Origin: Actinomycetospora chibensis
Lineage (GTDB): Bacteria > Actinomycetota > Actinomycetes > Mycobacteriales > Pseudonocardiaceae
Assembly (NCBI RefSeq): GCF_028737215.1
Contig: NZ_JAQZAM010000012.1
Span: forward strand, 62,001 to 126,000
Direction: 5' to 3'
DNA length: 64,000 nt
Shown piece by piece: positions 6,289-52,491 of this stretch. Every line of letters starts with the position of its first letter. The stretch's first letter is position 1. The position numbers and the translations under genes were made by a program. The notes beneath the pieces were generated by a model. The model was not told where the DNA came from. It worked only from the letters and a program-made list of their open reading frames with translations, and did no database searches.

Positions 6289-7755
6289 TCACACGTTCAT
6301 CGCCACGTACTTGATCTCGAGGTACTCGTCGATGCCGACGGTGCCGCCCTCGCGGCCCAGGCCCGACTGCTTCACGCCCCCGAAGGGCGCGCCGGCGTTG
6401 GACACCATGCCCTGGTTGAGCCCGACCATCCCCGCCTCGAGGCGCTCGGAGAGCCGGATCGCCCGGCTCAGGTCCTTCGTGTACAGGTAGCTCACCAGGC
6501 CGAACTCGGTGTCGTTGGCAGCGCGGATCGCGTCGTCGTCCTCGGTGAAGGTGAAGATCGGCGCCACCGGGCCGAAGATCTCCTCCTTGGCCAGGCGCGC
6601 CGAGGTGGGCACGTCGGAGAGCACCGTCGGCGGGTAGAAGTAGCCCGCGCCCGAGGGAATCTCGCCCCCGGTGCGCAGGGTGGCGCCCTTCTGCACGGCG
6701 TCGTCGACGAGCTCGGCGACCTTGTCACGCTGGTCGGCCTCGACGAGCGGGCCGACCTCGACACCCTCCTCGGTGCCGCGCCCGACCTTCATGTCGGCCA
6801 TCCGGTCGACGAGCTTCTTCGTGAACTCCTCGGCGACGTCGGCGTGGATGTAGAAGCGGTTCGCCGCGGTGCACGCCTCGCCGATGTTGCGCATCTTGGC
6901 GAGCATCGCGCCCTGCACGGCCTCGTCGACGTCGGCGTCGGCGCACACCACGAACGGGGCGTTGCCGCCGAGCTCCATCGACGTCTTGAGCACCTGCTGC
7001 GCGGACTGCTCGATCAGCTTCTGCCCGACCTCGGTGGACCCGGTGAACGACAGCTTCCGGATGCGCCCGTCGGCGATCAGCGGCCCCATCACCTTGCCGG
7101 TGGACGTCGTCGTCACGACGTTGAGCACGCCGTCGGGCAGGCCCGCCTCGGCGAGGATGTCGGCCAGCTTGAGGATGGTCAGCGGCGTCAGGCTCGCCGG
7201 CTTGATGACCATCGTGCAGCCGGCCGCGATCGCCGGGCCGATCTTGCGGGTGCCCATCGCCAGCGGGAAGTTCCACGGCGTGATCAGCAGGCACGGCCCG
7301 ATCGGCTGACGCATCACGAGGACGCGCCCGCTGCCGGTGGCGTTGACCTTCCACTCGCCGGAGATCCGCACGGCCTCCTCGGAGAACCAGCGGAAGAACT
7401 CCGCGGCGTAGGTGATCTCCGCCTTGGACTCGGCCAGCGGCTTGCCCATCTCCAGCGTCATGATCAGGGCGATGTCGTCGGCACGCTCGGTGATCAGCTC
7501 GAACGCGCGGCGCAGGATCTCCTCGCGTTCGCGGGGTGCGGTGGCGGCCCAGTCGGGCTGCGCGTCGTGCGCGGCCTGCAGCGCGACCATGCCGTCCTCC
7601 GGCGAGGCGTCCGCCACGTCGCAGAGGAGCTCGCCCGTCGACGGGTCCTCGACGCCGAACGTCCTCTGCTCGGTGGCGTCACGCACCGATCCGCCGATGA
7701 TCAGTCCCTTCGTGACCTCGTCGATCACGCGACGTTCCCGGTCGGTCTCGGCCAT
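6289..7755 (-). CDS. gabD: NAD(P)-dependent succinate-semialdehyde dehydrogenase
   Basis: A 488-residue aldehyde dehydrogenase that oxidises succinic semialdehyde to succinate (GABA shunt and related catabolism). Visible: the cofactor-binding region PWNFPLAMGTRKIGPAIAAG, FTGSTEVG, general base Glu in MELGGNAPF, catalytic Cys295 in GEACTAANRF, and the GPLVEADQRDKV and EIFGPVAP blocks. The C-terminal PFGGVKQSGLGREGG is typical of the GabD subfamily. Length is normal. It is convergent with DUF3616 and divergent from the flavoenzyme gene, so probably a single-gene unit. Substrate assignment rests on family resemblance. Confidence 0.88.
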   Translation of the reverse strand: MAETDRERRVIDEVTKGLIIGGSVRDATEQRTFGVEDPSTGELLCDVADASPEDGMVALQAAHDAQPDWAATAPREREEILRRAFELITERADDIALIMTLEMGKPLAESKAEITYAAEFFRWFSEEAVRISGEWKVNATGSGRVLVMRQPIGPCLLITPWNFPLAMGTRKIGPAIAAGCTMVIKPASLTPLTILKLADILAEAGLPDGVLNVVTTTSTGKVMGPLIADGRIRKLSFTGSTEVGQKLIEQSAQQVLKTSMELGGNAPFVVCADADVDEAVQGAMLAKMRNIGEACTAANRFYIHADVAEEFTKKLVDRMADMKVGRGTEEGVEVGPLVEADQRDKVAELVDDAVQKGATLRTGGEIPSGAGYFYPPTVLSDVPTSARLAKEEIFGPVAPIFTFTEDDDAIRAANDTEFGLVSYLYTKDLSRAIRLSERLEAGMVGLNQGMVSNAGAPFGGVKQSGLGREGGTVGIDEYLEIKYVAMNV

Positions 7756-7857
7756 GCGTCCCCTCCCGCTTCGTCACGTCCCGATCGGGACGTGCACGAC
7801 TCATCCTCGCCCCGCTAGGTGCCCCCGTCTCCGCAGGCCCATGCCGACCGTCCGGCC

Positions 7858-7863
7858 TAGGCT
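7858..7863 (+). promoter_or_regulatory. -10 box, leaderless promoter
   Basis: TAGGCT ends 7 nt before GTG 7871, the preferred start of the flavoenzyme. Confidence 0.45.
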
Positions 7864-7870
7864 CCGGCCC

Positions 7871-9394
7871 GTGTCCCGACCCCACCACCACGTCCGCGCC
7901 CGACCCGACCTGCCCCAGCGGGTGGGACCGGAGGCGAGTGCCCTCGTCGTCGGCGGCGGGATCGCGGGCGTGACCGCCGCGCTGGTCCTCGCCGAGCGGG
8001 GCGTGAAGGTCGAGCTGCTCGAGGCGGCGCCGCACCTCGGCGGGCGCCTCGGCACCTGGGACCGGCGCCTGGCCGACGGCAGCGAGGTCGTGGTCGAGCA
8101 CGGCTACCACGGCTTCTTCCGGCAGTACTACACGCTGCGCGACATCCTGCGCCGCCTCGACCCGGACCTCGGCTTCCTGCGCGACGTGGGCGGCTACCCC
8201 ATCGCGAGCCGCCCGTCGGTGGGCTGGGAGCCCGAGGACTTCACCGCGCTGCCGCGCACCCCGCTGCTCAACCTCGTCGCCCTCGTCCTGCGCAGCCCGA
8301 GCTTCAAGCTCGGCGAGCTGCGGCACGTGAACGCCGACGAGGCGCTGGCGATGCTGCACTACGACCCCGTCCGGACCTACGCCGAGCACGACCACCGCAG
8401 CGCGGCGGAGCTGCTCGACTCCCTCGGCTTCTCCGACCGCGGCCGGGCCATGCTCTTCGAGGTCTTCGCGCACTCGTTCTTCAACGTCGAGCAGCGTTAC
8501 TCGGCGGCCGAGTTCCTGGCGATGTGCCACTTCTACTTCACAGCCAACCCCGAGGGCCTCGGCATGGACGCCACGACCGAGGACTACCGCACCTCGCTGT
8601 GGGAGCCGTTCACGCGCCTGCTGGAGAAGCACGGGGCGACGGTGAGCACCGGGACGCGCGCGGTGGCGGTGCGGCCCGACGGCGCGCACGGGTGGGCCGT
8701 CGACGTCGAGGGCGAGCCCGCCCGCCACGCCCGCCACCTCGTCGTCACCACCGACGTCCCGGCCACGCGCGACCTCGTGGCCGCGTCCCCCGAGCTCGTC
8801 GCCGCCGCCCCGGGGCTGGCGCGGCGGATCGCTGCGCTGCCGAGCGGCGAGCCCTACGTCGTCGCCCGGCTGTTCTGCGAGGGCGACGTCGACCCGGCGC
8901 GGGCGGTGTTCACCGGCGTCACCCGCGAGGAGGTCCTCGACTCGGTGGCGCTCTTCCACCGGCTCGAGGGCGGGTCGGCGCGCTGGGCCGCCGAGTCGGG
9001 GCCGGGACGGCGCTCGGTGATCGAGCTGCACTCGTACGCCTGCCCGTCCGGGACCCCGACCGACGACCTCGTCGCGGCGATGCGCACCGAGCTCGCCGCC
9101 CTCTGGCCCGAGACCGCTGACCTGCGCGTGATCGACGTCGAGGCGCACCGCTACACCAACGCGCCGGGCTTCGACCCCGGCTACCACCTCGTGCGGCCCG
9201 GCGTCCTCACCGACGCCCGCGGGCTGCGCCTGGCCGGCGACTGGGTGGCGAGCGACGTCCCGTCGGCGCTGATGGAGCGCGCGGCCGTCACCGCGGTCAC
9301 GGCGGCGAACGACGTCCTGCGCGAGGAGGGCGTCGGCCCGGAGCCGATGCGCTCGATCCGCCCGCGGGGCATCCTCGCCGGCCGCCGGCCGTGA
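7871..9394 (+). CDS. FAD-dependent oxidoreductase (phytoene desaturase / amine oxidase fold)
   Basis: A 507-residue flavoprotein. The dinucleotide-binding motif GGGIAGVTAALVLAERGVKVELLEA (residues ~32-56) is followed by GGRLGTW, as in carotenoid desaturases, isomerases and related FAD enzymes. HGYHGFFRQYYTLRDIL follows. The C-terminal FAD contact is GLRLAGDWVASDVPSALMERAAVTAV. The true substrate is unclear: no other carotenoid gene is near. GTG 7871 is chosen from the TAGGCT box; an in-frame ATG at 7841 lies upstream of that box. The stop TGA (9392-9394) lies in the arm of a palindrome. Confidence 0.82.
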   Translation: MSRPHHHVRARPDLPQRVGPEASALVVGGGIAGVTAALVLAERGVKVELLEAAPHLGGRLGTWDRRLADGSEVVVEHGYHGFFRQYYTLRDILRRLDPDLGFLRDVGGYPIASRPSVGWEPEDFTALPRTPLLNLVALVLRSPSFKLGELRHVNADEALAMLHYDPVRTYAEHDHRSAAELLDSLGFSDRGRAMLFEVFAHSFFNVEQRYSAAEFLAMCHFYFTANPEGLGMDATTEDYRTSLWEPFTRLLEKHGATVSTGTRAVAVRPDGAHGWAVDVEGEPARHARHLVVTTDVPATRDLVAASPELVAAAPGLARRIAALPSGEPYVVARLFCEGDVDPARAVFTGVTREEVLDSVALFHRLEGGSARWAAESGPGRRSVIELHSYACPSGTPTDDLVAAMRTELAALWPETADLRVIDVEAHRYTNAPGFDPGYHLVRPGVLTDARGLRLAGDWVASDVPSALMERAAVTAVTAANDVLREEGVGPEPMRSIRPRGILAGRRP

Positions 9395-38844: not shown

Positions 38845-39711
38845 GTGCAGGTGGGTGCCCCGATGGGCTGGCTCGAGGCCGTGGTCCTCGGGATCGTGCA
38901 GGGACTGACGGAGTTCCTGCCGGTCTCCTCGTCCGCGCACCTGCGCATCACCTCGGCGTTCTTCTTCGGCAACGACGCCGGCGCGGCCTTCACGGCGGTT
39001 ACCCAGCTCGGCACCGAGACCGCGGTGCTCATCTACTTCTTCGGTGACATCTGGCGCCTGCTCAGGGCCTGGTTCGTGGGCCTCGCGCGCCGCGACGAGC
39101 GCGGCTACGACTACAAGCTCGCCTGGTACGTGATCATCGGCTCCATTCCGATCGGCGTCCTCGGCCTGGCCTTCGAGGACGCGATCAAGGGCCCGGCCCG
39201 CAACCTGTACCTCAACGCGACCGTGCTCATCGTGTTCGCGCTCGTCCTCGCCGCCGCCGAGCGCTACTCACGGCAGCGCCGCGGCCCCGACCAGCTCACG
39301 CTGCGCGACGGCATCGTCATGGGCTGCGCACAGGCGATGGCGCTGATCCCCGGGGTCTCGCGGTCGGGTGGCACGATCACCGCCGGCCTGTTCCTGGGCC
39401 TGGAGCGCGCCGTCGCCGTGCGGTTCTCGTTCCTGCTGGCGCTGCCCGCGGTGTTCGCCTCCGGGCTGACCCAGATCCCCGACATCCTCGAGCCGTCCGC
39501 CGCCGACGTGCAGGGCAGCCTCGTGGTGGTCCCGAGCATCCCGCAGATGATCGTCGCCACGATCATCGCGTTCGTCCTGGGCTACGCCTCGATCGCCTGG
39601 CTGCTGAAGTTCGTCGAGAACCACACGATCTACGTCTTCGTCTGGTACCGGGTGCTGCTCGGGCTGGTCGTCCTGCTCGCCGTGAGCAACGGGGTCGTCC
39701 CGGCGACGTAG
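38845..39711 (+). CDS. uppP: Undecaprenyl-diphosphatase UppP (BacA)
   Basis: A 288-residue membrane phosphatase that recycles the C55 lipid carrier for peptidoglycan and wall polymers. Signature motifs: [23 protein letters not shown] near the N-terminus and [21 protein letters not shown] in the middle, with eight hydrophobic segments. GTG 38845 is chosen from the TACCGT box; ATG 38863 ([14 protein letters not shown]) is the usual family start and equally possible. It heads the conserved uppP - phosphomutase - DUF3090 - SCO1664 string. Confidence 0.94.
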
Positions 39712-39724
39712 GCGAGCACCCGCG

Positions 39725-39730
39725 TACGGT
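39725..39730 (+). promoter_or_regulatory. -10 box, leaderless promoter
   Basis: TACGGT ends 6 nt before GTG 39737. Confidence 0.45.
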
Positions 39731-39736
39731 CGTGTC

Positions 39737-40489
39737 GTGACAACGGTGATCCTTCTGCGGCACGGCCGGTCGACGGCCAACGTGTCGGGTGTGCTCGCCG
39801 GTCGCAGCACCGGCGTCGGTCTCGACGACCACGGCCGCACGCAGGCCGAGAAGCTGGTCGACCGGCTCGCCGAGCTGCCCCTGGCGGCCGTGGTGACCTC
39901 GCCGCTGCAGCGCTGCCGGGAGACGGTGGCCCCGCTGCTCACCGCCCGCGGCCTGGAGGCGACGGTCGAGGACGACCTGTCCGAGGTCGACTACGGCGAC
40001 TGGACCGGGCGCAAGCTCGGCGATCTCGGCAAGGAGGACCTCTGGAAGGTCGTCCAGGCCCACCCGTCCGCCGCCGTGTTCCCCGGCGGGGAAGGCCTCG
40101 CCGGGATGCAGGCCCGCGCGGTCGCGGCGATCCGCCGGCAGGCCGCGCGCATCGGCGCCGAGCACGGCGACCGCGCCCTGTGGGTGGCCTGCAGCCACGG
40201 TGACGTGATCAAGGCCGCGGTCGCCGACGCGCTCGGTCTGCACCTCGACTCGTTCCAGCGCATCGTCGTCGACCCCTGCTCGGTGAGCGTCATCAGCTAC
40301 ACGCCCACCCGGCCCTTCGTCGTGCGGGTCAACGACACCGGCGGCGACCTGTCCGCGCTGGTCCCGAAGCCGGAGAGCGAGGAATCCGACAGTTCCTCCG
40401 ACGCCGCCGACGACCCCACGGCAGCCTCGTCCGGCGACGTCACCGTCCCCGCGGAGGCCACCGTCGGAGGGTCGACGGGAGTAGCATGA
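39737..40489 (+). CDS. MSMEG_4193-family histidine phosphatase
   Basis: A 250-residue member of the phosphoglycerate-mutase-like superfamily. The phospho-acceptor His9 is in LLRHGRSTAN. SEVDYGDWTG carries the acidic residue and ACSHGDVIKA gives the second His154. So it should be a phosphatase or phosphomutase acting through phospho-His; its substrate is unknown. The C-terminal ~40 residues (ESEESDSSSDAADDPTAASSG) are an acidic Ser-rich tail not needed for the fold. It is normally found beside DUF3090, SCO1664 and mshC genes; the DUF3090 gene follows here. Confidence 0.92.
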   Translation: MTTVILLRHGRSTANVSGVLAGRSTGVGLDDHGRTQAEKLVDRLAELPLAAVVTSPLQRCRETVAPLLTARGLEATVEDDLSEVDYGDWTGRKLGDLGKEDLWKVVQAHPSAAVFPGGEGLAGMQARAVAAIRRQAARIGAEHGDRALWVACSHGDVIKAAVADALGLHLDSFQRIVVDPCSVSVISYTPTRPFVVRVNDTGGDLSALVPKPESEESDSSSDAADDPTAASSGDVTVPAEATVGGSTGVA

Positions 40490-40547
40490 GGACGCCGTTG
40501 ACGCCAGGGGATCCGCACCTCCTCCAGCGGCGTCCCTCCGTGAGTCC

Positions 40548-40553
40548 TACGAT
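40548..40553 (+). promoter_or_regulatory. -10 box before the DUF3090 gene
   Basis: TACGAT ends 9 nt before ATG 40563; the intervening cgagaag is not a clear ribosome site. Confidence 0.4.
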
Positions 40554-40562
40554 CGAGAAGCC

Positions 40563-41132
40563 ATGCCCAGGGTGATCCACGTCTTCCGCCAGCCCGACCG
40601 GTTCGTCGCCGGCACCGTCGGGCAGCCCGGCGAACGCTCCTTCTACCTCCAGGCCACCGAATCGGCCCGGCGGGTGAGCGTGCTGCTCGAGAAGCAGCAG
40701 GTGTCGGTGCTCTCGGAGCGGATCGGCACCCTGCTCGAGGAGGTCTCGCGGCGCTTCGGTGCGGACGTCCCCGTGTCGGTGCCCGAGGACGAGGTCGACA
40801 CCTCGCCGCTCGAGGTGCCGGTGGAGGAGGAGTTCCGCGTCGGCACCATGGGGCTGGGCTGGGACGCCGAGTCCAAGAACGTCGTGGTCGAGCTGCTCGC
40901 GGTCACCGAGGAGGAGATCGACGAGTCGGTCGTCCTCGACGACACCGACGAGGGCCCCGACGCGCTGCGCGTGTTCCTCTCGCCCGCCGGCGCCCGCGCG
41001 TTCGCGACGCGCGCCGAGCGCGTGGTCGGCGCCGGACGGCGCCTGTGCCCGCTGTGCACCCAGCCGCTGGACGCCTCCGGCCACGTGTGCCCGCGGCAGA
41101 ACGGCTACCGACGCGTCGCCTCCCCCGAGTAG
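40563..41132 (+). CDS. DUF3090 family protein with C-terminal zinc knuckle
   Basis: A 189-residue protein of an actinobacterial family of unknown function. The core is MPRVIHVFRQPDRFVAGTVG, then RSFYLQATESARRVSVLLEKQQVSVLSERIGTLLEEV, and EEFRVGTMGLGWD. The C-terminus holds a CxxC-x8-HxC site (C162, C165, H174, C176) that should bind zinc. A segment before it (LRVFLSPAGARAFATRAERVVGAGRRLCPLC) is well conserved in the family as I remember it. The SCO1664 gene starts 4 nt after the stop. Confidence 0.93.
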   Translation: MPRVIHVFRQPDRFVAGTVGQPGERSFYLQATESARRVSVLLEKQQVSVLSERIGTLLEEVSRRFGADVPVSVPEDEVDTSPLEVPVEEEFRVGTMGLGWDAESKNVVVELLAVTEEEIDESVVLDDTDEGPDALRVFLSPAGARAFATRAERVVGAGRRLCPLCTQPLDASGHVCPRQNGYRRVASPE

Positions 41133-41136
41133 GCGC

Positions 41137-41945
41137 GTGAACGGGGACACGGGCGCGAACGGGTCGACCTCCGACGACCGGGAGCTGCTGCTCCACGGCC
41201 GGATGGAGGTCGAGGGCCGTCTCACGGAGGCGTCCAACACCACGCTGCTGTGCGTCATCGACTTCAACGGTGTCGAGGGCCGCTGCGTCTACAAGCCCGT
41301 CCGCGGCGAACGCCCGCTGTGGGACTTCCCCGACGGCACGCTCGCCGGGCGGGAGGTGGCGACGTACCTGGTCAGCGAGGCGGCCGGGTTCGGGGTGGTG
41401 CCGACGACGGTGCTGCGCGACGGCCCCTTCGGCCCCGGCATGGTCCAGCGCTGGATCGACACCGACGAGGAGCGCGAGCTCGTCGACGTCGTCCCGGCGC
41501 GCTCGGTCGGCCAGGGCTGGCGCACCGTCCTGCGTGCCCGCGACGCCGCGGGGGACCCGGCGCTGCTCGTGCACGCCGACGACCCGGCCCTGCGGCGCAT
41601 GGCGGCGCTCGACGTCGTCGTCAACAACGCCGACCGCAAGGGCGGGCACGTGCTCGCCGGCGTCGACGGCGGCGTCTACGGCGTCGACCACGGCATCTGC
41701 CTGCACCGCGAGGAGAAGCTGCGCACGGTGCTCTGGGGCTGGGTGGGCGAGCCGCTCTCCGACGACGTCGTCGACGGTCTGCGCCGCCTGCGCAAGGCCC
41801 TGTCCCCGGGCAACAGGGCGGGGCTCGACGACACCCTGCACGAGCACCTGACCCGTGCCGAGGTCTCGGCGCTGCGCTCGCGGCTCTCGAAGCTGCTCGA
41901 CGCGAACGAGCTGCCCGCGCCGGGAGGACGCTGGCCTCCGATCCC

Positions 41946-41961
<16 letters not shown>
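41137..41961 (+). CDS. SCO1664-family protein (PI3/4-kinase/HipA-like fold)
   Basis: A 274-residue protein of the SCO1664 family. It carries the residues of a minimal kinase of the PI3/4-kinase/HipA type: K53 in RCVYKPVRGERPLWDFPDG (ATP lysine), DVVVNNADRKGGHVL with D166/H171 as a catalytic loop, and GVDHGICL with D184 as the metal Asp. I infer a phosphotransferase; no substrate is known. GTG 41137 follows DUF3090 by 4 nt. Its last 16 bases overlap the metallo-hydrolase start. Confidence 0.9.
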
Positions 41962-42926
<965 letters not shown>

Positions 42927-42932
<6 letters not shown>

Positions 42933-42990
42933 CCGCCCCCCTGTGACCGCCCCCCTGTGACCGCCCCCCTGTGACCGCCCCCTGTGAACG
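42927..42990 (+). repeat. 14-bp minisatellite at a stop/start junction
   Basis: Units ctgtgaccgccccc at 42927-42940, 42941-42954 and 42955-42968, a 13-bp unit at 42969-42981, then a partial ctgtgaacgc. Every unit carries GTGA, an overlapping start-stop. The first TGA ends the metallo-hydrolase and the last GTG opens the 42984 ORF. Confidence 0.85.
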
Positions 42991-43125
42991 CTGCCGTCCC
43001 CCCGCGCCGGTCCGGGCGGGCTCTGGTGGTGTGGGGCGTCGCGGTCCTCGCGTACGTCGCCGGCCACCACCGGTGGCACCGGCGGGGATCGCGCGGTCGG
43101 CGCGGAAGGTGCCGCGGCCGGTCCC
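42984..43125 (+). pseudogene. Possible remnant of an MFS transporter N-terminus
   Basis: From GTG 42984 the frame reads VNAAVPPRRSGRALVVWG and VAVLAYVAGHHR, which resembles the first helix of actinobacterial MFS carriers (RALVVWxVxVLAYVxAVxHR). It then turns Arg-rich. Another forward frame over the same bases reads VAPAGIARSARKV, like the usual HRTSxGVAGxxAxxRF loop, so a frameshift could explain the loss. Nothing MFS-like follows before the convergent enoyl-CoA hydratase gene. The similarity is short, and this is a tentative call. Confidence 0.25.
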
Positions 43126-43926
43126 TCAGTCGGCCGCCGACGGGAAGCGGGGCTCGCGCTTCTCGCGCAGCGCCGTGTAGCCCTCGACGACGTCGGGGCC
43201 GAGGAACGTGAGCATCTCGTAGGCCGCGGACTGGTCGAAGGTCGGCCCGGCGCTGCGCAGCCAGTTGTTGAGGCTGCGCTTGGTGAGCCGGATCGCCTGC
43301 TGGGAGCCGGTGCCGAGGGTGTCGGCGACGCGCAGGGCCTCGTCGAGCACCTGGTCGCGGGGGAGCGCCTTGGCGACCATCCCGAGACGCTCGGCCTCGG
43401 CGCCGGTGACCATCTCGCCGGTCAGCAGGTAGTACCGCGCCTTGGCCATGCCGGCCAGCAGCGGCCAGATGATCGCGGCGTGGTCGCCGGCCGCGACGCC
43501 GAGCTTGACGTGCCCGTCGCCGAGCCGGGCGTCCTCGGCGGCGATGGCGATGTCCGCGAGCAGCGCGACGACCACCCCGGCCCCGACCGCGACGCCGTTG
43601 ATCGCCGACACGATGGGCTTGTCGCAGTCGATGATGTTGTAGACCAGGTCGGACATCTCGCGGAGCATGTGCTGGACGCGGTCGTAGTCGCCGGCCATCC
43701 GCTCGACCATCGCCAGGTCGCCGCCCGCGGAGAACGCCTTCCCGGCGCCGGTGATCACGGCGACACGGGTCTGCTCGTCGGCCCCCACGTCCCGCCAGAC
43801 CCGGGCCAGCTCCCCGTGGAGCCCCTCGTCGGCCGCGTTGTACTTGTCGGGGCGGTCGATGGTGATCAGCAGGACGCCGTGGTCGCGGCGCTCGAACGTC
43901 AGCTGGTGGTAGTCCTCGAACGGCAC
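43126..43926 (-). CDS. Enoyl-CoA hydratase/isomerase family protein
   Basis: A 266-residue crotonase-fold enzyme. Visible: [27 protein letters not shown], the oxyanion-hole regions [14 protein letters not shown] and [49 protein letters not shown], and the trimer helix at the C-terminus. The usual catalytic Glu positions are replaced by His/Ala-containing sequence (AAGDHAA), so it may be a non-hydratase member. It lies 28 nt downstream of a BadH-like dehydrogenase gene, and the pair suggests a CoA-thioester catabolic step. Confidence 0.9.
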
Positions 43927-43954
43927 GGGCGCTCTCCTCGGTGGGTTCGTGCGG

Positions 43955-44713
43955 TCAGCTCATCGAGAGTCCGCCGCTGACGGACAGGGTCTGGCCGGTG
44001 ATGTACGCGGCCTCGTCGGAGGCCAGGAACGCGACGGCGTGGGCGACGTCGGCGGGCTGCGCGAGCCGGCGCAGCGGGATCGCCTTGATCAGCGCGTCGC
44101 GCAGCTTCGGGTTGTCCTCGGTGACCGACGCGAACAGCGCGGTGTCGGTCGGGCCGGGGCACACGCAGTTGACCGCGATCTGGTGGCGGGCCATCTCGCG
44201 AGCGGTGGTCTTGGTGAACGCGATGATCCCGCCCTTGGCCGCCGAGTACACCGCCTCGCCGGACGAGCCGACCCGGCCGGCGTCGGAGGCGAGGTTGACC
44301 ACCCGCCCGCCACCCTGCTCCACCATGATCGGGAGGACGGTCTTCGAGGTGTGCAGGACGCCGTAGAGGTTGATCCCGATGATCCGGTCCCAGTCGGCGG
44401 GGTCGGAGTCGACGAACGGCCCGACCTTGTCGTAGCCCGCGTTGTTGACCAGCACGTCGATGCGACCGAAGCGCTCGCGGACGGCGGCGACCATGGTCTC
44501 GACGGACTCCCGCGACGCGACGTCGCACGTGAGGCCGAGCGCGTCGCCTCCGGGGGCCGCGCCGAGTGTGGCCGCGGTGTCGTTCGCCGTCGCCTCGTCG
44601 ACGTCCGTGGCCACCACGGTCGCGCCCTCGGCGGCGAGCTTCTCGGCGATCCCGCGGCCGATGCCGCGCCCGGCTCCGGTCACGATCGCGATCTTCCCGT
44701 CCATCCTGCCCAT
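43955..44713 (-). CDS. SDR family oxidoreductase, BadH-like
   Basis: A 252-residue short-chain dehydrogenase. NAD(P) site TGAGRGIGRG, NNAG motif in VLVNNAGYDKVGPF, catalytic Ser and YxxxK in SDAGRVGSSGEAVYSAAKGG. The SDAxRVGSSGEAVYxxxKGG segment and the GQTLSVSGGLSMS end closely recall BadH, the 2-hydroxycyclohexanecarboxyl-CoA dehydrogenase of alicyclic acid degradation. ATG 44713 has GAGGAG about 10 nt upstream; ATG 44704 is in frame. Substrate assignment is by resemblance. Confidence 0.9.
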   Translation of the reverse strand: MGRMDGKIAIVTGAGRGIGRGIAEKLAAEGATVVATDVDEATANDTAATLGAAPGGDALGLTCDVASRESVETMVAAVRERFGRIDVLVNNAGYDKVGPFVDSDPADWDRIIGINLYGVLHTSKTVLPIMVEQGGGRVVNLASDAGRVGSSGEAVYSAAKGGIIAFTKTTAREMARHQIAVNCVCPGPTDTALFASVTEDNPKLRDALIKAIPLRRLAQPADVAHAVAFLASDEAAYITGQTLSVSGGLSMS

Positions 44714-44730
44714 GGGGTGGCTTCTCCTCG

Positions 44731-44762
44731 CTCGCGTGACGGCGGCCTCGCGTGACGGCGGC
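44731..44762. repeat. 16-bp perfect tandem repeat upstream of the SDR start
   Basis: ctcgcgtgacggcggc occurs at 44731-44746 and 44747-44762, 18 nt from the SDR start codon. It may be a regulator binding site or a slippage product. Confidence 0.65.
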
Positions 44763-44852
44763 ACGGAGCGAAGCGGACGCGCCCGGGCGCGCGCAAGCGG
44801 GAGCCTCGGCACAGCGCACGGGCCGGCGGAGGTCGACATCTCCGTGAGCGGA

Positions 44853-44869
44853 GCTTCGGGAACCGAAGC
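44853..44869. terminator. GCTTCGG-GAA-CCGAAGC hairpin, copy 3
   Basis: The same 7-bp stem as at 19855, 34 nt beyond the minus-strand end of the sortase-like gene. Together the copies suggest a small family of terminators. Confidence 0.5.
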
Positions 44870-44903
44870 GTTTCCCGTCCGCGTCGCGACGGCCCCTCCG
44901 GGC

Positions 44904-45566
44904 TCAGCCCTGCCCGCTCAGGCGGGCGTAGACGATCAGGTCGTCCCCGGCGGAGCCCCCGTAGGCGATGAGCCGCAGCTCGGCGTCGCCGGTGTCGCCG
45001 TGCACCTCGCGGGCCGGGAACTTCACCGGGGACACCTGCACGGTGCCCGTGACGACGAAGACCGCCGTCGACCCGTCACGGCGCCGCACGGTGATCCGGT
45101 CGCCCGCGGTCGCGTCCGCGAGGCCGGCGAAGACGCCGCGACGTCCGTCGCCGTCGACGCGACCGACCAGCACCGCGGGGCCGCGCGCCCCCGGCGTCGG
45201 CCCGGCACGGAACCAGCCGGCCTGTTCCGGGGCGTGCACCGACGGCGCCGCGACCCGGCGCCACCCGTCGACCTCGTCGCCCTCCCCGACCGGCACGAGC
45301 GACGAGCAGGCGTCGATGCGGTCGATGGTCAGCTCGACGGGGTCGGCGGCGCGCATCGGCGTCGGGTCGGGGCGCCAGGACGCGGTGCTCGGCGGACAGG
45401 GGTCGGGCGGACGCTCCGCGGTGGCGACCCCCGCCGCCACCCCCATCGCGGCACACCCCGCGCTGAGCAGGAACGCCAGCGCCGCCAGCATGCGGTTCAC
45501 CGGCGACCGCTCGGGACGCGGCGCGACCGGTCGACGGTGCCGCCCCACGCCCGTCGCACGCGCCAT
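44904..45566 (-). CDS. Class F sortase-like protein lacking catalytic residues
   Basis: A 220-residue membrane-anchored protein. An N-terminal span (RMLAALAFLLSAGCAAMGVAAGVA) is followed by a class F sortase fold: DPVELTIDRIDACSSLVPVG, WFRAGPTPGARGPAVLVG, DRITVRRRDGSTAVFVV and AELRLIAYGG...LIVYARL. In active members the segments read GHVD (catalytic His), ITCGG (Cys) and R-D/H-N before VVYA (Arg). Here they are GRVD (R136), IAYGG (A201) and GDD. So all three catalytic residues appear lost. It may bind a sorting signal or a wall polymer without cleaving. ATG 45566 follows GGGGGGAAC; a longer start at 45590 is possible. Confidence 0.8.
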   Translation of the reverse strand: MARATGVGRHRRPVAPRPERSPVNRMLAALAFLLSAGCAAMGVAAGVATAERPPDPCPPSTASWRPDPTPMRAADPVELTIDRIDACSSLVPVGEGDEVDGWRRVAAPSVHAPEQAGWFRAGPTPGARGPAVLVGRVDGDGRRGVFAGLADATAGDRITVRRRDGSTAVFVVTGTVQVSPVKFPAREVHGDTGDAELRLIAYGGSAGDDLIVYARLSGQG

Positions 45567-45668
45567 GTTCCCCCCACGGATCGCGACCACTCCTGTGACC
45601 GTCGAGAGTGCACGCTCCGTGACCGGACGTCAGGAGCCACCTTCGGGTCACCGCGCTCCGCGCGCGAT

Positions 45669-45682
45669 CTCCGTTCACGGAG
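45669..45682. promoter_or_regulatory. CTCCGT-TC-ACGGAG palindrome in the divergent promoter region
   Basis: A 6-bp inverted repeat in the 149-nt space between the divergent sortase-like and AAA ATPase genes, upstream of the TAGCGT box. It could bind a regulator shared by both directions. Confidence 0.35.
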
Positions 45683-45703
45683 GCCGGATCGCCGTGGCGG
45701 ACG

Positions 45704-45709
45704 TAGCGT
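45704..45709 (+). promoter_or_regulatory. -10 box of the AAA-VWA operon
   Basis: TAGCGT ends 6 nt before GTG 45716. The spacer ggagga also resembles a ribosome site. Confidence 0.45.
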
Positions 45710-45715
45710 GGAGGA

Positions 45716-47143
45716 GTGAGCACCCCTTCCGCTCCTGCAGATCTCCCCACCACCGCCGGTGAGCTCGCGCGCAGCGGCCACCCGGCGGCGACGCCCAAGA
45801 GCGTCCGTACCGAACTGCGCGACAACCTCCTCGCCCGGCTGCGTGCCGGCGCGGACCCGTGGCCGGGGATCGTCGGGTTCGACCGCACCGTGCTCCCGCA
45901 GTTCGAGCGCGCGGTGCTCGCCGGGCACGACGTGGTGCTGCTCGGCGAGCGCGGGCAGGGCAAGACGCGCCTGCTGCGCAGCCTCGTGGCCCTGCTCGAC
46001 GAGTGGACGCCGGTGATCGCCGGGTCCGAGATCGGCGAGCACCCCGGCGAGCCGATCACCCCGGCGAGCCGACGCCGTGTCGCCGACGAGGGCGACGACC
46101 TGCCGATCACCTGGCGGCACCGCTCCGAGCGCTACGCCGAGAAGCTGGCCACCCCGGACACCTCCGTCGCCGACCTCATCGGCGACGTCGACCCCGTCAA
46201 GGTCGCCGAGGGCCGCAGCCTGGGCGACCCCGAGACCATCCACTACGGCCTCGTGCCCCGCGCGCACCGCGGCATCGTGACGATCAACGAGCTGCCCGAC
46301 CTCGCCGAGCGCATCCAGGTCGCGCTGCTCAACGTGATGGAGGAGCGCGACATCCAGGTGCGCGGCTACACGCTGCGCCTGCCGCTGGACATCATGCTCG
46401 TGGCCAGCGCGAACCCCGAGGACTACACGAACCGCGGGCGGATCATCACGCCTCTCAAGGACCGCTTCGGGGCCGAGGTCCGCACGCACTACCCGCTCGA
46501 GATCGTCGGCGAGATCGCGCTCGTGCACCAGGAGGCGCACCTCGTCGCCGACGTGCCCGACCACCTCGTCGAGGTCCTCGCCCGCTTCACCCGCCACCTG
46601 CGGAGCTCCGGCGCGATCGACCAGCGCAGCGGTGTGTCCGCGCGGTTCTCGATCGCGGCGGCCGAGACCGTCGCGGCCGCCGCGCTGCGCCGGGCCGCGG
46701 TCACCGGCGAGGACACCGCCGTGGCCCGTCCCGTCGACCTCGAGGCGGTGCCGCCGGTGCTGCGCGGCAAGCTCGAGTTCGAGTCGGGGGAGGAGGGCCG
46801 CGAGGCCGAGCTGCTCACGCACCTGCTGCGCCGCTCGATCTCCGAGACCGCCCGCGCCCGCCTCGCCGGGGTCGACCTGACCCCGCTCGCCGAGGGCGTG
46901 TCGGCCCTGGAGGGCGACCGGCGGGTCGTCACGGGCGACCGGATCGCCGCCAAGGACGTCGTCGACGCCCTGCCCTCGATCTCGGTCGTCTACACGGTCG
47001 CCGAGCGCCTGGGCGCCGCCGGCACGGAGGCCCCGGGGCCGCTGGCCAGCGCCGTCGAGCTCGCCCTCGAGCACCTCTACCTCACCCGCAAGCTGGCCAA
47101 GGACGACGACGCGGACGAGGGCACGGTGACCTATGGCGGCTGA
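45716..47143 (+). CDS. AAA ATPase, magnesium-chelatase ChlI-like
   Basis: A 475-residue AAA+ ATPase of the ChlI-like group (Rv0958 type). Walker A GERGQGKT is in DVVLLGERGQGKTRLLRS. The Walker B-like segment is GIVTINELPDLAERIQVALLNVMEERDIQVRGY. Sensor 1 reads LVASANPEDYTNRGRIITPLKDRFGAEVRTHYP. The lid domain follows with SARFSIAAAETVAAAA. These proteins occur with a VWA protein, here overlapping by 11 bp, and form a two-component remodelling pair like BchI-BchD or MoxR-VWA. The target is unknown. Confidence 0.92.
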   Translation: MSTPSAPADLPTTAGELARSGHPAATPKSVRTELRDNLLARLRAGADPWPGIVGFDRTVLPQFERAVLAGHDVVLLGERGQGKTRLLRSLVALLDEWTPVIAGSEIGEHPGEPITPASRRRVADEGDDLPITWRHRSERYAEKLATPDTSVADLIGDVDPVKVAEGRSLGDPETIHYGLVPRAHRGIVTINELPDLAERIQVALLNVMEERDIQVRGYTLRLPLDIMLVASANPEDYTNRGRIITPLKDRFGAEVRTHYPLEIVGEIALVHQEAHLVADVPDHLVEVLARFTRHLRSSGAIDQRSGVSARFSIAAAETVAAAALRRAAVTGEDTAVARPVDLEAVPPVLRGKLEFESGEEGREAELLTHLLRRSISETARARLAGVDLTPLAEGVSALEGDRRVVTGDRIAAKDVVDALPSISVVYTVAERLGAAGTEAPGPLASAVELALEHLYLTRKLAKDDDADEGTVTYGG

Positions 47144-49094
47144 CAAGCCCGGCACCGGCCGGTACTCCTACGGCCGCTTCTACGACGGGCCGGATCCCCT
47201 GGCGCCGCCGTTCGACCTGCGGTCGGCGATGGACGAGCTCGGCCGCGACGTCATGGAGGGCACGTCCCCGCGGCAGGCGATGCGCGAGCTGATGCGCCGC
47301 GGGCTGGGCGACCAGCAGGGTCTCGACGACCTCATGCGCCGGCTCAACGAGCGGCGCAGCAAGCTGCAGCGCGAGCACCGTCTCGACGGGACGCTGCAGG
47401 AGGTCCGCGAGCTGCTCGAGCGGGCGCTCGAGGCCGAGCGCAACTCCCTGCAGGCCGAGGACTCCGACGACGCCCGGTTCCGCGAGATGCAGCTCGACGC
47501 GCTGCCCCCGTCGCCCGCCGGTGCCGTCGCCGAGCTGCAGGACTACGACTGGCGCAACGCCGAGGCGCGCCAGGCCTACGAACAGATCCAGGACCTGCTC
47601 GGCCGGGAGGCGCTCGATCAGCGCTTCCAGGGCATGAAGCAGGCCATGGAGAACGCGACGCCCGAGGACGTCGAGCGGGTCCGCGAGATGATCTCGGACC
47701 TGAACGACCTGCTCGAGGCGCACGCCCGCGGCGAGGACACCGCGGAGCAGTTCGGCGAGTTCATGGGCAAGCACGGCGAGTTCTTCCCGGAGAACCCGCA
47801 GACCACCGACGAGCTGATCGACCTGCTCGCCGAGAGGGCCGCCGCGGCCCAGCGGATGATGAACTCGCTGTCGGCCGAGCAGCGCGCCGAGCTCGAGGGC
47901 CTCATGCAGCAGGCCTTCGGCGACCCACGGCTGGCCGAACAGCTCTCCCGGCTCGACCAGCAGCTCCAGGGCATGCGCCCCGGCGAGGACTGGCAGGGCC
48001 GCGGCCGATTCCGCGGCGACGACCCGATGGGCATGGGCGAGGCCACCCGGGCCATGGAGGAGCTGGGGCAGATGGACGCCCTGGCCGAGCAGCTCTCGCA
48101 GTCCTACCCGGGCGCGCGGATGGAGGACATCGACTTCGAGGCCCTCGAGGCGACCCTCGGCGAGCAGGCTCGCGTCGACGCCCAGCGCCTGGCCGAGCTG
48201 CAGCGCGAGCTCGAGGAACAGGGCGTCTTCCAGCGCGCCGCCGACGGCTCGCTGATGCTCTCGCCGAAGGCGCTGCGCCAGCTCGGGCAGTCCTCGCTGC
48301 GCGACGTCGTCGGCTCGCTGTCGACCCGTCGCGGCGAGCGGGAGACCCAGCGCTCCGGGGCGGCGGGGGAGGCGACGGGCGCGACACGCCCGTGGTCGTT
48401 CGGCGACACCGAACGCTGGGACGTCTCGCGCACGCTGCTGAACGCCGAGATGCGCAAGGCCGGCGGTGATGTGCGGGACCTCGACGTCTCCGACGTGGAG
48501 ATCGTCGAGACCGAACAGCGCACCCGGGCCGCGGTGGCGCTGTGCGTCGACACCTCGTGGTCGATGGTCGCCGACGGGCGCTGGGTGCCGATGAAGCGCA
48601 CGGCCCTGGCCCTGCACCACCTGGTGTCCACGCGGTTCCGGGGCGACGCGCTGCAGCTCATCACGTTCGGCCGGCACGCCAAGGAGGTCGAGCTCGGGGA
48701 GCTGACCGCGCTGGAGGGCGCCTGGGAGCAGGGCACGAACCTCCACCACGCGCTGCTGCTCGCGGGCCGACACCTGCGCAGGAACATCGACGCGGCGCCC
48801 GTCGTCCTCGTCGTCACCGACGGCGAGCCGACCGCGCACCTCGAGCCGGACGGGCACGCGGCGTTCGACTACCCGCCGAGCCCGGAGACGCTGCGGGCGA
48901 CGCTGAACGAGGTCGATGCGCTGGCACGTCTGCACGCGGCGATGACGGTCTTCATGCTCGGGGAGGACCCGCGCCTGGAGGCGTTCGTCGACCTCGTCGC
49001 CCGGCGCGCGGGCGGGCGGGTCGTCAATCCGGACCTGGACGGTCTCGGGGCCGCGGTGGTGAGCGACTACCTGGCGAGTCGCCGACGACGCTGA
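47133..49094 (+). CDS. VWA domain-containing protein (partner of the ChlI-like ATPase)
   Basis: A 653-residue protein. Residues 1-~430 are helical and charged, with long segments rich in Glu, Arg and Gln ([40 protein letters not shown]) and a possible coiled coil. The C-terminal VWA domain starts near residue 450: [16 protein letters not shown] gives the MIDAS DTSWS motif, and [12 protein letters not shown] the second acidic site. The pair resembles Rv0958-Rv0959. Its ATG lies 11 bp inside the ATPase gene. Confidence 0.92.
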
Positions 49095-49396
49095 GGCATC
49101 GGACGCGCTGCGCATCCACCACACGGTGCAATGCCATCTGTCCGATGACCCTGCGTGCACCACAGTGCGCCACTGCGGGGGAATGCGGTTACGCTCGATC
49201 GTGGCTGGAGTCGATCCCCCCCGCGACTCCTGGCCACCCCGGCCGGGTCCGTCATCCCGTGCAGGGCGGAGTGCTCGCCCACGACGTCCTGCTGACTCGA
49301 CCCGGCCGGGGTCCACCACGGTCTTCGCACCGGAGCGGCGAGCGGTTCGCCACGAGTCCGGGCGGGCACCGCCGCGACGGGCTTAGGCTCGGGGGC
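49095..49396. other. 302-nt intergenic region before mshC with several inverted repeats
   Basis: No gene is seen. Just after the VWA stop, CATCGGAC (49097-49104) pairs with GTCCGATG (49140-49147) around a partly complementary interior; probably the terminator. GGAGTCG/CGACTCC (49207-49230) forms a hairpin. CCCCGGCCGGGTC (49237-49249) is exactly complementary to GACCCGGCCGGGG (49299-49311). The mshC -10 box lies further downstream, so these repeats are upstream DNA elements, not part of an mshC leader, unless another promoter exists. Confidence 0.65.
49384..49389 (+). promoter_or_regulatory. -10 box, leaderless promoter of mshC
   Basis: TAGGCT ends 7 nt before ATG 49397. No ribosome site is present. 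Confidence 0.5.
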
Positions 49397-50647
49397 ATGC
49401 GAGCGTGGTCATCGGTCGACGTCCCGCGGGTGCCCGGCAGCCCGCCCCCGCTGAGGCTCCACGACACGGCCGGTGGGGACATCCGACCCACCACGCCGGG
49501 GTCCACCGCCCGGATGTACGTCTGCGGCATCACGCCCTACGACGCGACGCACCTCGGCCACGCGGCGACCTACCTGGCGTTCGACCTGATCCACCGCCTG
49601 TGGCTCGACGCGGGCCACGACGTGCACTACGTCCAGAACGTCACCGACATCGACGACCCGCTGCTCGAGCGGGCCGAGCGGGACAAGGACGACTGGGTCG
49701 TGCTCGGGATGCGCGAGACGGCGCTGTTCCGCGAGGACATGGCCGCGCTGCGGATCCTCCCGCCGCGCGACTTCATCGGGGCCGTCGAGGCCATGGACGA
49801 GATCAGCGAGCTGGTGGGCAAGCTCCTGGCCAGCGGCGCGGCCTACCGCGCCGACGACGCCGAGTTCCCGGACGTCTACCACGACCACACCGCCACGCGG
49901 GACTTCGGCTACGTCTCGCGCTACGACGAGGCGCGGATGCGCGAGGTGTTCCCGCAGCGCGGCGGCGACCCCGACCGTCCGGGCAAGCGGGACCCGCTCG
50001 ACGCGCTCCTGTGGCGCATGGCCCGTGAGGGCGAGCCGTCGTGGACCTCCGACCTCGGGGAGGGGCGCCCCGGCTGGCACGTCGAGTGCGCGGCCATCGC
50101 CCTGAACCGTCTCGGCGACCAGTACGACGTCCAGGGCGGCGGCTCGGACCTCGCCTTCCCGCACCACGAGTACGGCTCGGCGCACGCCGAGGCCCTCACC
50201 GGCGCGCACCCGCTCGCCCGGCACTACTGCCACGCCGGGATGATCGGGCTCGACGGCGAGAAGATGTCGAAGTCCAAGGGCAACCTCGTCTTCGTCTCCC
50301 GCCTGCGGGCCGACCGCGTCGACCCCCTGGCCGTGCGCCTGGCCCTGATGGGCGGGCACTGGCGCACCGACCGGTCCTGGACCGCGGACCTGCTCACCGG
50401 CGGCCAGGCGCGGCTGCACCGGTGGCGCGACGCGGTCGCGGCCCCGACCGGGCCCGACCCCGAGGACACGATCGCCCGGGTGCGCGCGCACCTCGCGGAC
50501 GACCTCGACACGCCCGGGGCACTGGCCGCCATCGACGCCTGGGCCGACGAGGTGCTCCTGCGCCGCGGTGGCGACGGGTGGGCCCCCGACGCGCCGACCC
50601 GGCTCGCCGACGCCGCCGACGCGCTGCTCGGGGTCACGCTGCGCTGA
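49397..50647 (+). CDS. mshC: Cysteine--1-D-myo-inosityl 2-amino-2-deoxy-alpha-D-glucopyranoside ligase
   Basis: A 416-residue MshC, which joins cysteine to GlcN-Ins with ATP in mycothiol synthesis. It is a CysRS-like class I ligase without an anticodon domain. Motifs: [20 protein letters not shown] (zinc Cys and HLGH at 52-55), HVECAAIAL (second zinc Cys), AFPHHEYG, and KMSKSKGN (from 289). The [12 protein letters not shown]-terminus is diagnostic of MshC rather than CysS. Mycothiol is the main thiol of actinobacteria. The start is fixed by the TAGGCT box. Confidence 0.96.
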
Positions 50648-50665
50648 CGCGGGTACCTCCCGCGC

Positions 50666-51022
50666 ATGCCCCGCAACGTCCTCGGCGGCGAGCTCGCCGA
50701 CTGCAGTCACGACCCCGTCACCGGCTTCTACCGCAACGGCTGTTGCGAGACCGGTCCGGACGACGCGGGCGTGCACACCGTGTGCGCCCGCGTCACCGAG
50801 GAGTTCCTGACCTACTCCGCCGAGCGTGGCAACGACCTGACCCGCGCCGACGCCGGCTTCCCCGGCCTCGAGCCCGGCGACCGCTGGTGCCTGTGCGCCA
50901 GCCGCTGGCAGGAGGCGCTCGAGGGCGGCGTCGCCCCGCCGGTCGTGCTCGAGGCCACCCATGCCCGCACGCTCGAGTGGGTCGACCTCGCCCAGCTGGA
51001 GGCGCACCGCGCACGTGAGTGA
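50666..51022 (+). CDS. DUF2237 family protein
   Basis: A 118-residue protein of the Cys-rich DUF2237 family, function unknown. Conserved blocks: PRNVLGGELADCSHDPVTGFYRNGCCETGPDD, HTVCARVTEEFLTYSAERGNDL and PGDRWCLCASRWQEAL. It is cytoplasmic and starts 18 nt after mshC, so it may be cotranscribed. Its stop codon lies inside a palindrome. Confidence 0.93.
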   Translation: MPRNVLGGELADCSHDPVTGFYRNGCCETGPDDAGVHTVCARVTEEFLTYSAERGNDLTRADAGFPGLEPGDRWCLCASRWQEALEGGVAPPVVLEATHARTLEWVDLAQLEAHRARE

Positions 51023-51053
51023 ATCGGTCGTTCCGACGACTCCAATCGCTCAC
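51015..51053. terminator. Imperfect palindrome containing the DUF2237 stop (GTGAG...CTCAC family)
   Basis: Left arm GTGAGTGAATCGGTCGTT, right arm ending CAATCGCTCAC; several mismatches inside, but the ends match the family. The TGA stop (51020-51022) is in the left arm. Terminator candidate. Confidence 0.55.
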
Positions 51054-51072
51054 ATGCGGTACGCATCCTGCT

Positions 51073-52491
51073 GTGCCCTCGGACCCGCCCTCCGCGACCC
51101 AGGTCCAGGCGCACCGCTACGCCGTGCGCCGCCTGGAGTCCGCGCTGGTCGGCCGTGACCCGACGCCGCGCCACGACCCGGGCCGCCGCCAGAACCGCGC
51201 GCTGCTCGTGGGCACGGTGCTCGCGGTGCTGGCGCTCGTGGGGTTCGCCGTGGTCGGGCTCGTGCGCGGCGACGAGGGGTGGCGCGACGAGTCGGTGGTG
51301 CGCGGCGAGCCCTCGGGCGCGCTCTACGCCGTGGCGCACGGCCCGGACCGCCTGGTCCCGGCCCTGAACCTCGCCTCCGCGCGCCTGCTCGCCGGAGCCG
51401 CCGGCAACACCGAGGTGGGCGGGCCCCCGGTGCCGGTCCGTGACGACGCCCTCGCCGAGGCGCCCCGCACCGCACCGGCGGGCATTCCCGGCGCGCCGTC
51501 GGTGCTGCCGGCTCTGGCCGCTCCGGCCCCCGACGCCTGGGCGGTCTGCGACCGCGCGACGCTCGACCCCTCGGTGCCCGACCCCGCCGCGGACCCGGCG
51601 ATCACCACCGTCGCGCTCGGCGGGGTCCCGGCGCCCGGGCGTCCGCTCGCGGCCGACGAGGCGCTGCTGCTGCGCGGCTCCGACGGGTTCTGGCTCGTCA
51701 CCGAGGGGCGCCGAGCGCGGATCGACCCGTCGCTGGGTTCCGTGGTCCGCGGCCTGGAGCTCACCGGCGCGCGCCCCCGCAACGCGGGCCCGGCCCTGCT
51801 CGGCACGCTGCCCGAGGCCCCGCCGCTGGTCCCCGTCCAGGTCCCCGGCAGCGGGGGAGCGCCGACCGACGCCCGCACCGCCGCGCTCGGCGTGCCCGTC
51901 GGCGCCGTCGTGAGCCCCGACGGCGGTCGCTTCTTCCTCGTCGCCGCCGCCGGGGTGCAGGAGGTGCCGGCGGTGATCGCCCAGCTCGCCCGCTTCGCCA
52001 ACCCCGACCCGGCCGCCGACCCCGGGATCGCCGCCGTCCCGGCGGGCCGGCTCGCCGCGGCGCCACGTGTCGCGGTCGTCGACGTGCGCGCCTACCCGTC
52101 GGCGACCCCCCGGCTGGTCACCTACGACGAGGCCACCACCACCTGCGTGCGCGCCGAGGCCTCCGGCGCGGCCGCGGTGTTCGCCGCGTCCGCGTTGCCC
52201 GGGCCGGTCGAGCCCACCCCGCTGGTCGGGCCCCCGCTCGACGGCGCCTGGGTCGCCGGCGGCGGTACCTACGTGCTCCCGGTGGCACCGGGAGCGCCCG
52301 CCGACCCCGCCTCGACCGATCCGTCCGCCGGGGTGCTCGTCGACCCGGGCGGGCGGGTGTTCGCCGTCCCGGACCCCGCGAGCGCCGCCGCCCTGGGCCT
52401 CGGCACGCCTCGCCCGGCCCCCCGCGCGGTGCTCGACCTCCTCCCGCGCGGCCCGACCCTCGACGCCGTCGCGGCCCAGTCGGCGCGCTGA
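51073..52491 (+). CDS. eccB: Type VII secretion protein EccB-like
   Basis: A 472-residue EccB. The N-terminus VPSDPPSATQVQAHRYAVRRLESALVGRD is the classical EccB cytoplasmic segment. One span follows (ALLVGTVLAVLALVGFAVVGLV, residues ~42-63), then a large periplasmic domain with EccB repeats (SGALYAVAHGPDRLVPALNLASARLLAG; VLVDPGGRVFAVPDPASAAALGLG). In ESX systems EccB is part of the membrane core complex and binds ATP outside. No eccC, eccD, eccE, mycP or esx gene is nearby. GTG 51073 is the family start; an upstream ATG at 51019 would overlap the terminator. Confidence 0.92.
   Translation: MPSDPPSATQVQAHRYAVRRLESALVGRDPTPRHDPGRRQNRALLVGTVLAVLALVGFAVVGLVRGDEGWRDESVVRGEPSGALYAVAHGPDRLVPALNLASARLLAGAAGNTEVGGPPVPVRDDALAEAPRTAPAGIPGAPSVLPALAAPAPDAWAVCDRATLDPSVPDPAADPAITTVALGGVPAPGRPLAADEALLLRGSDGFWLVTEGRRARIDPSLGSVVRGLELTGARPRNAGPALLGTLPEAPPLVPVQVPGSGGAPTDARTAALGVPVGAVVSPDGGRFFLVAAAGVQEVPAVIAQLARFANPDPAADPGIAAVPAGRLAAAPRVAVVDVRAYPSATPRLVTYDEATTTCVRAEASGAAAVFAASALPGPVEPTPLVGPPLDGAWVAGGGTYVLPVAPGAPADPASTDPSAGVLVDPGGRVFAVPDPASAAALGLGTPRPAPRAVLDLLPRGPTLDAVAAQSAR

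Follow-up and report, generated by a model that had tools for sequence, protein, structure and literature searches.

The SCO1664, DUF3090 and MSMEG_4193 families form a candidate phosphorylation system of Actinomycetota and Chloroflexota

The SCO1664 (TIGR03843), DUF3090 (TIGR03847) and MSMEG_4193 (TIGR03848) protein families are, as we take their TIGRFAM descriptions to say, the parts of a system of three genes, among them a probable kinase and a phosphomutase, that occurs mainly in Actinobacteria and also in Chloroflexi. We analysed a stretch of 64,000 nucleotides from Actinomycetospora chibensis (contig NZ_JAQZAM010000012.1, positions 62,001 to 126,000; the window) that holds a member of each family, called here K (SCO1664 family), Z (DUF3090) and P (MSMEG_4193 family). 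Beyond these descriptions, we add counts in both phyla, predicted folds, a dispensable hairpin in Z and the patterns of loss. The trio is better seen as a promising candidate for a phosphorylation system than as a piece of the mycothiol pathway encoded nearby.

K matched TIGR03843 over its full length (positions 1-253 of 253). The first-pass annotation had pointed to kinase-like residues at K53, D166, H171 and D184, and these are correctly numbered when counted from the GTG at 41137, the start chosen by the gene caller and evidently by that annotation as well, on which the residue numbers depend. We observed that all four, together with E73, were identical in 81/81 aligned SCO1664 rows. The predicted structure agreed with the kinase assignment: it showed a kinase fold of the PI4K/FAM20/HipA group, with a recognisable PI4KII-type kinase fold (type II phosphatidylinositol 4-kinase) as the nearest. 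K is acidic (median net charge -9, negative in 79/81 rows) and lacks a Cys-rich membrane motif, unlike the type II PI4-kinases, whose Cys-rich palmitoylation motif is CCPCC; a search of the K family for CC.CC, CCCC or CCxxC found none in 81/81 rows. It is likely that K is an active kinase, and we infer that it uses ATP.

We then counted the three families in 197 Actinomycetota and 151 Chloroflexota genomes. K, Z and P were all present in 78 of the Actinomycetota genomes, so that the lack of co-occurrence that would have spoken against the first-pass proposal was not seen in that phylum. K and Z occurred together in 81 Actinomycetota and 79 Chloroflexota genomes. Linkage (same strand, within 3.5 kb) was counted in 80 named loci. 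The order P-Z-K was found in 63 (6 with K near the locus edge), Z-K in 12 (2 at the edge), P-K in one (L118) and K alone in four, with Z located elsewhere in three of these four genomes. The Z-K gap was at most 300 bp in 70/75 cases and the P-Z gap in 62/63. Among 15 genomes with a P-less locus, one had P over the cut-off elsewhere, two had a P scoring 175-179 bits, and in the remaining 12 nothing exceeded 118 bits. One genome (G008) carried a full P-Z-K locus plus a second P-K copy without DUF3090 (L078, L079). The genes flanking the trio varied by lineage; a Mycobacterium locus (L134) was among the carriers.

The K tree separated the two phyla almost fully, with 4 label changes compared to about 24 in shuffles, and this pattern fits an old, mostly vertically inherited family. 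In two Chloroflexota metagenome-assembled genomes (loci L150 and L161), K fell inside a supported Actinomycetes set (99/98 and 100/100) and Z also grouped with Actinomycetes (100/99). These loci hold Z and K, with no P, uppP or mshC. This looks like a transfer of the K-Z pair alone; contamination of the assemblies is possible.

Z had been singled out earlier for a CxxC-HxC zinc site. C162, C165, H174 and C176 do lie at those positions in the window protein, but the site is not constant in the family: the Cys trio was present in 64/75 DUF3090 rows (the His aligned in 61) and in the other 11 it was absent along with the whole hairpin. These 11 rows coincide exactly with a supported clade in the K tree, which has 11 members (99/85). 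On the tree, the absence is a single loss that left the K active site intact. There is thus no support for the putative zinc site being central to DUF3090 function, since one clade has lost it entirely. The predicted fold of Z has two beta-sheet/helix repeats in succession; these can be superposed on repeats I-II of PURA and form an intramolecular pair of PUR repeats. Net charge was negative in 75/75 rows, which speaks against binding of single-stranded nucleic acid, and no recognised catalytic motif was seen.

DUF3090 appears in the literature as a putative metal-binding protein carrying CxxC..HxC (PMC9425974) and as one of the syntenic DUFs of Streptomyces (PMC13118837). MSMEG_4192 turns up in a dibucaine enrichment screen and in the ClpC1 interactome (PMC10127668, PMC10433963), and Rv2134c is listed in a BCG screen for rifampicin sensitivity (PMC11329110); judging from gene order, both would be DUF3090 genes. 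Separately, a PTP/DSP-type phosphatase gene lies directly 3' of DUF3090 in five loci (L167-L171) of genomes without SCO1664. Near solitary DUF3090 genes, a further gene family was present in 10/40 Chloroflexota loci (L181:6539-7516 and nine others), at most about 100 bp upstream in five; the single member scanned was a D-2-hydroxyacid dehydrogenase.

The assignment of P as a histidine phosphatase was borne out by its PF00300 and TIGR03848 matches, with H9 and H154 as numbered and the RHG catalytic motif at residues 8-10. Its M. tuberculosis relative Rv2135c is described as a weak acid phosphatase and a tetramer, with an activity on p-nitrophenyl phosphate of 0.23 umol/min/mg (Table 5 of that paper prints the unit as mol) and a Km of 10.6 mM. 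It was weaker on phosphoenolpyruvate, fructose 6-phosphate and glycerol 1-phosphate, and among the substrates reported there it was inactive on 3-phosphoglycerate, glucose 6-phosphate and ADP (PMC3866925).

The predicted fold, the active-site conservation, the linkage and the co-occurrence are what we observed, and they suggest a reversible phosphorylation cycle. ATP would be bound by K through K53 paired with E73, a metal would be held by D184 and H171, and D166 would drive the step in which an acceptor receives the gamma-phosphate. Z, as an acidic PUR-fold protein, would bind K or present the substrate, and P would take the phosphate off again via phospho-H9. Given the acidity of both K and Z and the lack of a Cys-rich membrane motif in K, a soluble protein or a small molecule is a more probable acceptor than a lipid of the membrane. 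We give about an even chance to the reading as a whole, in which K is the kinase, Z its usual partner and P opposes K on the same putative substrate. Two observations weigh against it: several Chloroflexota that carry K and Z have no clear P, and the C. glutamicum control genome had K and P over the cut-off with no DUF3090 match, where a diverged DUF3090 is possible. Owing to this control we slightly lowered our estimate that K and Z cooperate physically, which we still favour by a little. That P reverses K is a tentative proposal, somewhat short of even odds. Both the K-Z contact and the action of P on the product of K are what we infer from these patterns.

K might instead be a pseudokinase scaffold, with the phosphatase as the sole enzyme of the system. 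This is unlikely, as the invariance of K53, E73, D166 and D184 would be unusual for a pseudokinase, and the equally invariant His171 could bind metal. The closeness of K to the PI4KII fold raises another explanation, a phosphoinositide cycle, in which K, as a PI4KII-like enzyme of bacteria, would phosphorylate a lipid or inositol and P would convert phosphatidylinositol phosphate to phosphatidylinositol. An inositol-phosphate synthase (Ino1) domain was found in 78/81 Actinomycetota genomes with K and Z compared to 58/114 without K or Z, and a 2019 paper called the phosphatase of mycobacterial phosphatidylinositol synthesis yet-unidentified (PMC6506517). However, phylogeny confounds the Ino1 correlation and Ino1 occurred in just 32/50 Chloroflexota or Thermomicrobiota carriers (whose genomes may be incomplete), several K-Z genomes lack P or have only a weak match to it, and the acidity of K and its lack of a palmitoylation-type motif do not suit a lipid kinase of this type. 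We therefore regard this cycle as improbable. Its fullest form, with K as a prokaryotic PI4KII-type kinase, P as the long-missing phosphatidylinositol phosphate phosphatase of actinobacteria and Z as a PUR-fold regulator of a phosphoinositide or inositol-phosphate cycle, is more improbable still.

The neighbourhood of mshC suggests, in turn, a mycothiol accessory module, with P as the missing MshA2 phosphatase or K as a regulator of MshC. A 2013 review described SCO1664 as generally very close to mshC and suggested a role in the mshC network (PMC4255298). Of 18 MshC-positive genomes, 17 had mshC on the contig and strand of K at a distance of at most 7.5 kb; in G008 it sits on a different contig. 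The first-pass annotation had likewise grouped the trio with uppP and mshC as a conserved module. In the window, mshC is on the same strand but not adjacent, 7.4 kb past K, and the module did not hold up across genomes: 63/81 Actinomycetota genomes with K and Z had no MshC over the cut-off. Of these 63, 22 had an MshC/CysRS-like (cysteinyl-tRNA synthetase) match scoring 345-446 bits, conceivably a distant MshC, though in none of the 22 did it share a contig with K at 100 kb or less; the other 41 had no match above 332 bits. When the window UppP and MshC were searched by tblastn against 130 loci, MshC-level matches (>360 bits) were found in 26, and UppP matches in 18 of those 26. Eight of these 26 loci come from the class of the window; the other 18 are named loci, every one of which belongs to the Actinomycetes set of 22 rows in the K tree. 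Among the 130 loci, linkage to uppP and mshC was confined to Actinomycetes. The trio thus also occurs without MshC, and K and Z are shared by 79 of the Chloroflexota genomes counted above. We give the mycothiol explanation very little credence; uppP and mshC are lineage-specific neighbours outside the trio core. The kinase and phosphatase reading is strengthened by these results; the mycothiol/uppP framing and the emphasis on zinc are not.

As a side observation, MshC/CysRS-like matches of 345-446 bits, below the MshC cut-off, were seen in G129, G016, G124, G099, G031 and 20 other genomes; several of these also have a second, ordinary CysRS-level match, and the first may be a remote MshC from beyond the class of the window. 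Three Chloroflexota loci of Thermoflexales type carry CysRS near Z instead of mshC. In L086 the gene (6636-8093) is on the strand opposite to Z, two genes upstream of it, and L087 and L089 have similar genes; the L086 gene alone was scanned with Pfam. HipA kinases target a tRNA synthetase. The placement of K beside a CysRS-fold enzyme here, as well as beside mshC in Actinomycetes, is probably coincidence.

The genes named in the first-pass annotation lie where it placed them, and UppP, P, Z, K and MshC all exceed their curated cut-offs. The order uppP, P, Z, K and MBL-fold gene is consecutive, with a spacing of 73 bp between P and Z and, taking the GTG at 41137 as the start of K, of 4 bp between Z and K. 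Nothing supports membership of the MBL-fold gene in the trio. Besides this gene and the MoxR-type ATPase and VWA genes, enoyl-CoA hydratase, SDR and sortase genes on the minus strand separate K from mshC.

Table. Features of the window locus. Curated cut-offs in bits: TIGR03848, 203.85; TIGR03847, 117; TIGR03843, 172.4; TIGR03447, 485; PF11290 (gathering), 27.
Feature	Position	Strand	Match
uppP, undecaprenyl-diphosphate phosphatase	38845..39711	+	NF001392, 405 bits
P, MSMEG_4193-family histidine phosphatase	39737..40489	+	TIGR03848, 334.8 bits; PF00300, E 1.7e-48
Z, DUF3090	40563..41132	+	TIGR03847, 257 bits; PF11290, 234 bits
K, SCO1664 family, predicted PI4KII/FAM20/HipA-like kinase fold	41137..41961	+	TIGR03843, 372.8 bits
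MBL-fold metal-dependent hydrolase	41955..42932	+	PF12706, E 7.5e-40
MoxR-type AAA ATPase and VWA protein pair, between trio and mshC	45716-49094	+	profile matches
mshC, mycothiol Cys:GlcN-Ins ligase	49406..50647	+	TIGR03447, 651.7 bits
DUF2237 gene and EccB (type VII secretion) gene, 3' of mshC	50663-52491		

The trio is found across much of Actinomycetota and in part of Chloroflexota, and if K is active, it would represent a widespread phosphorylation system so far missed. The literature had suggested mycothiol; our analysis directs attention elsewhere and indicates which residues and which partner are the first to test.

When compared with known proteins, K shares 15-16% identity with PI4KIIalpha/beta. 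The catalytic loop of PI4KII (DRxxxN) has a metal-binding Asn, whereas K has His171 in all 81 rows; in PI4K2B, an Asn lies in the stretch aligned to His171, and in a profile alignment FAM20A has Glu at this place. Unlike the FAM20 secretory kinases, CtkA, HipA and CotH, K was seen with no HipB-like or secretion context around it. P shares the RHG motif and a full-domain match with branch 1 of the histidine phosphatase superfamily (CobC, PspA, Rv2135c), within which it forms its own subfamily, TIGR03848. Z differs from Pur-alpha (PUR repeat) and Whirly-like proteins in being acidic and in having an extra hairpin, at 9-13% identity, and its second repeat has only three strands in the model.
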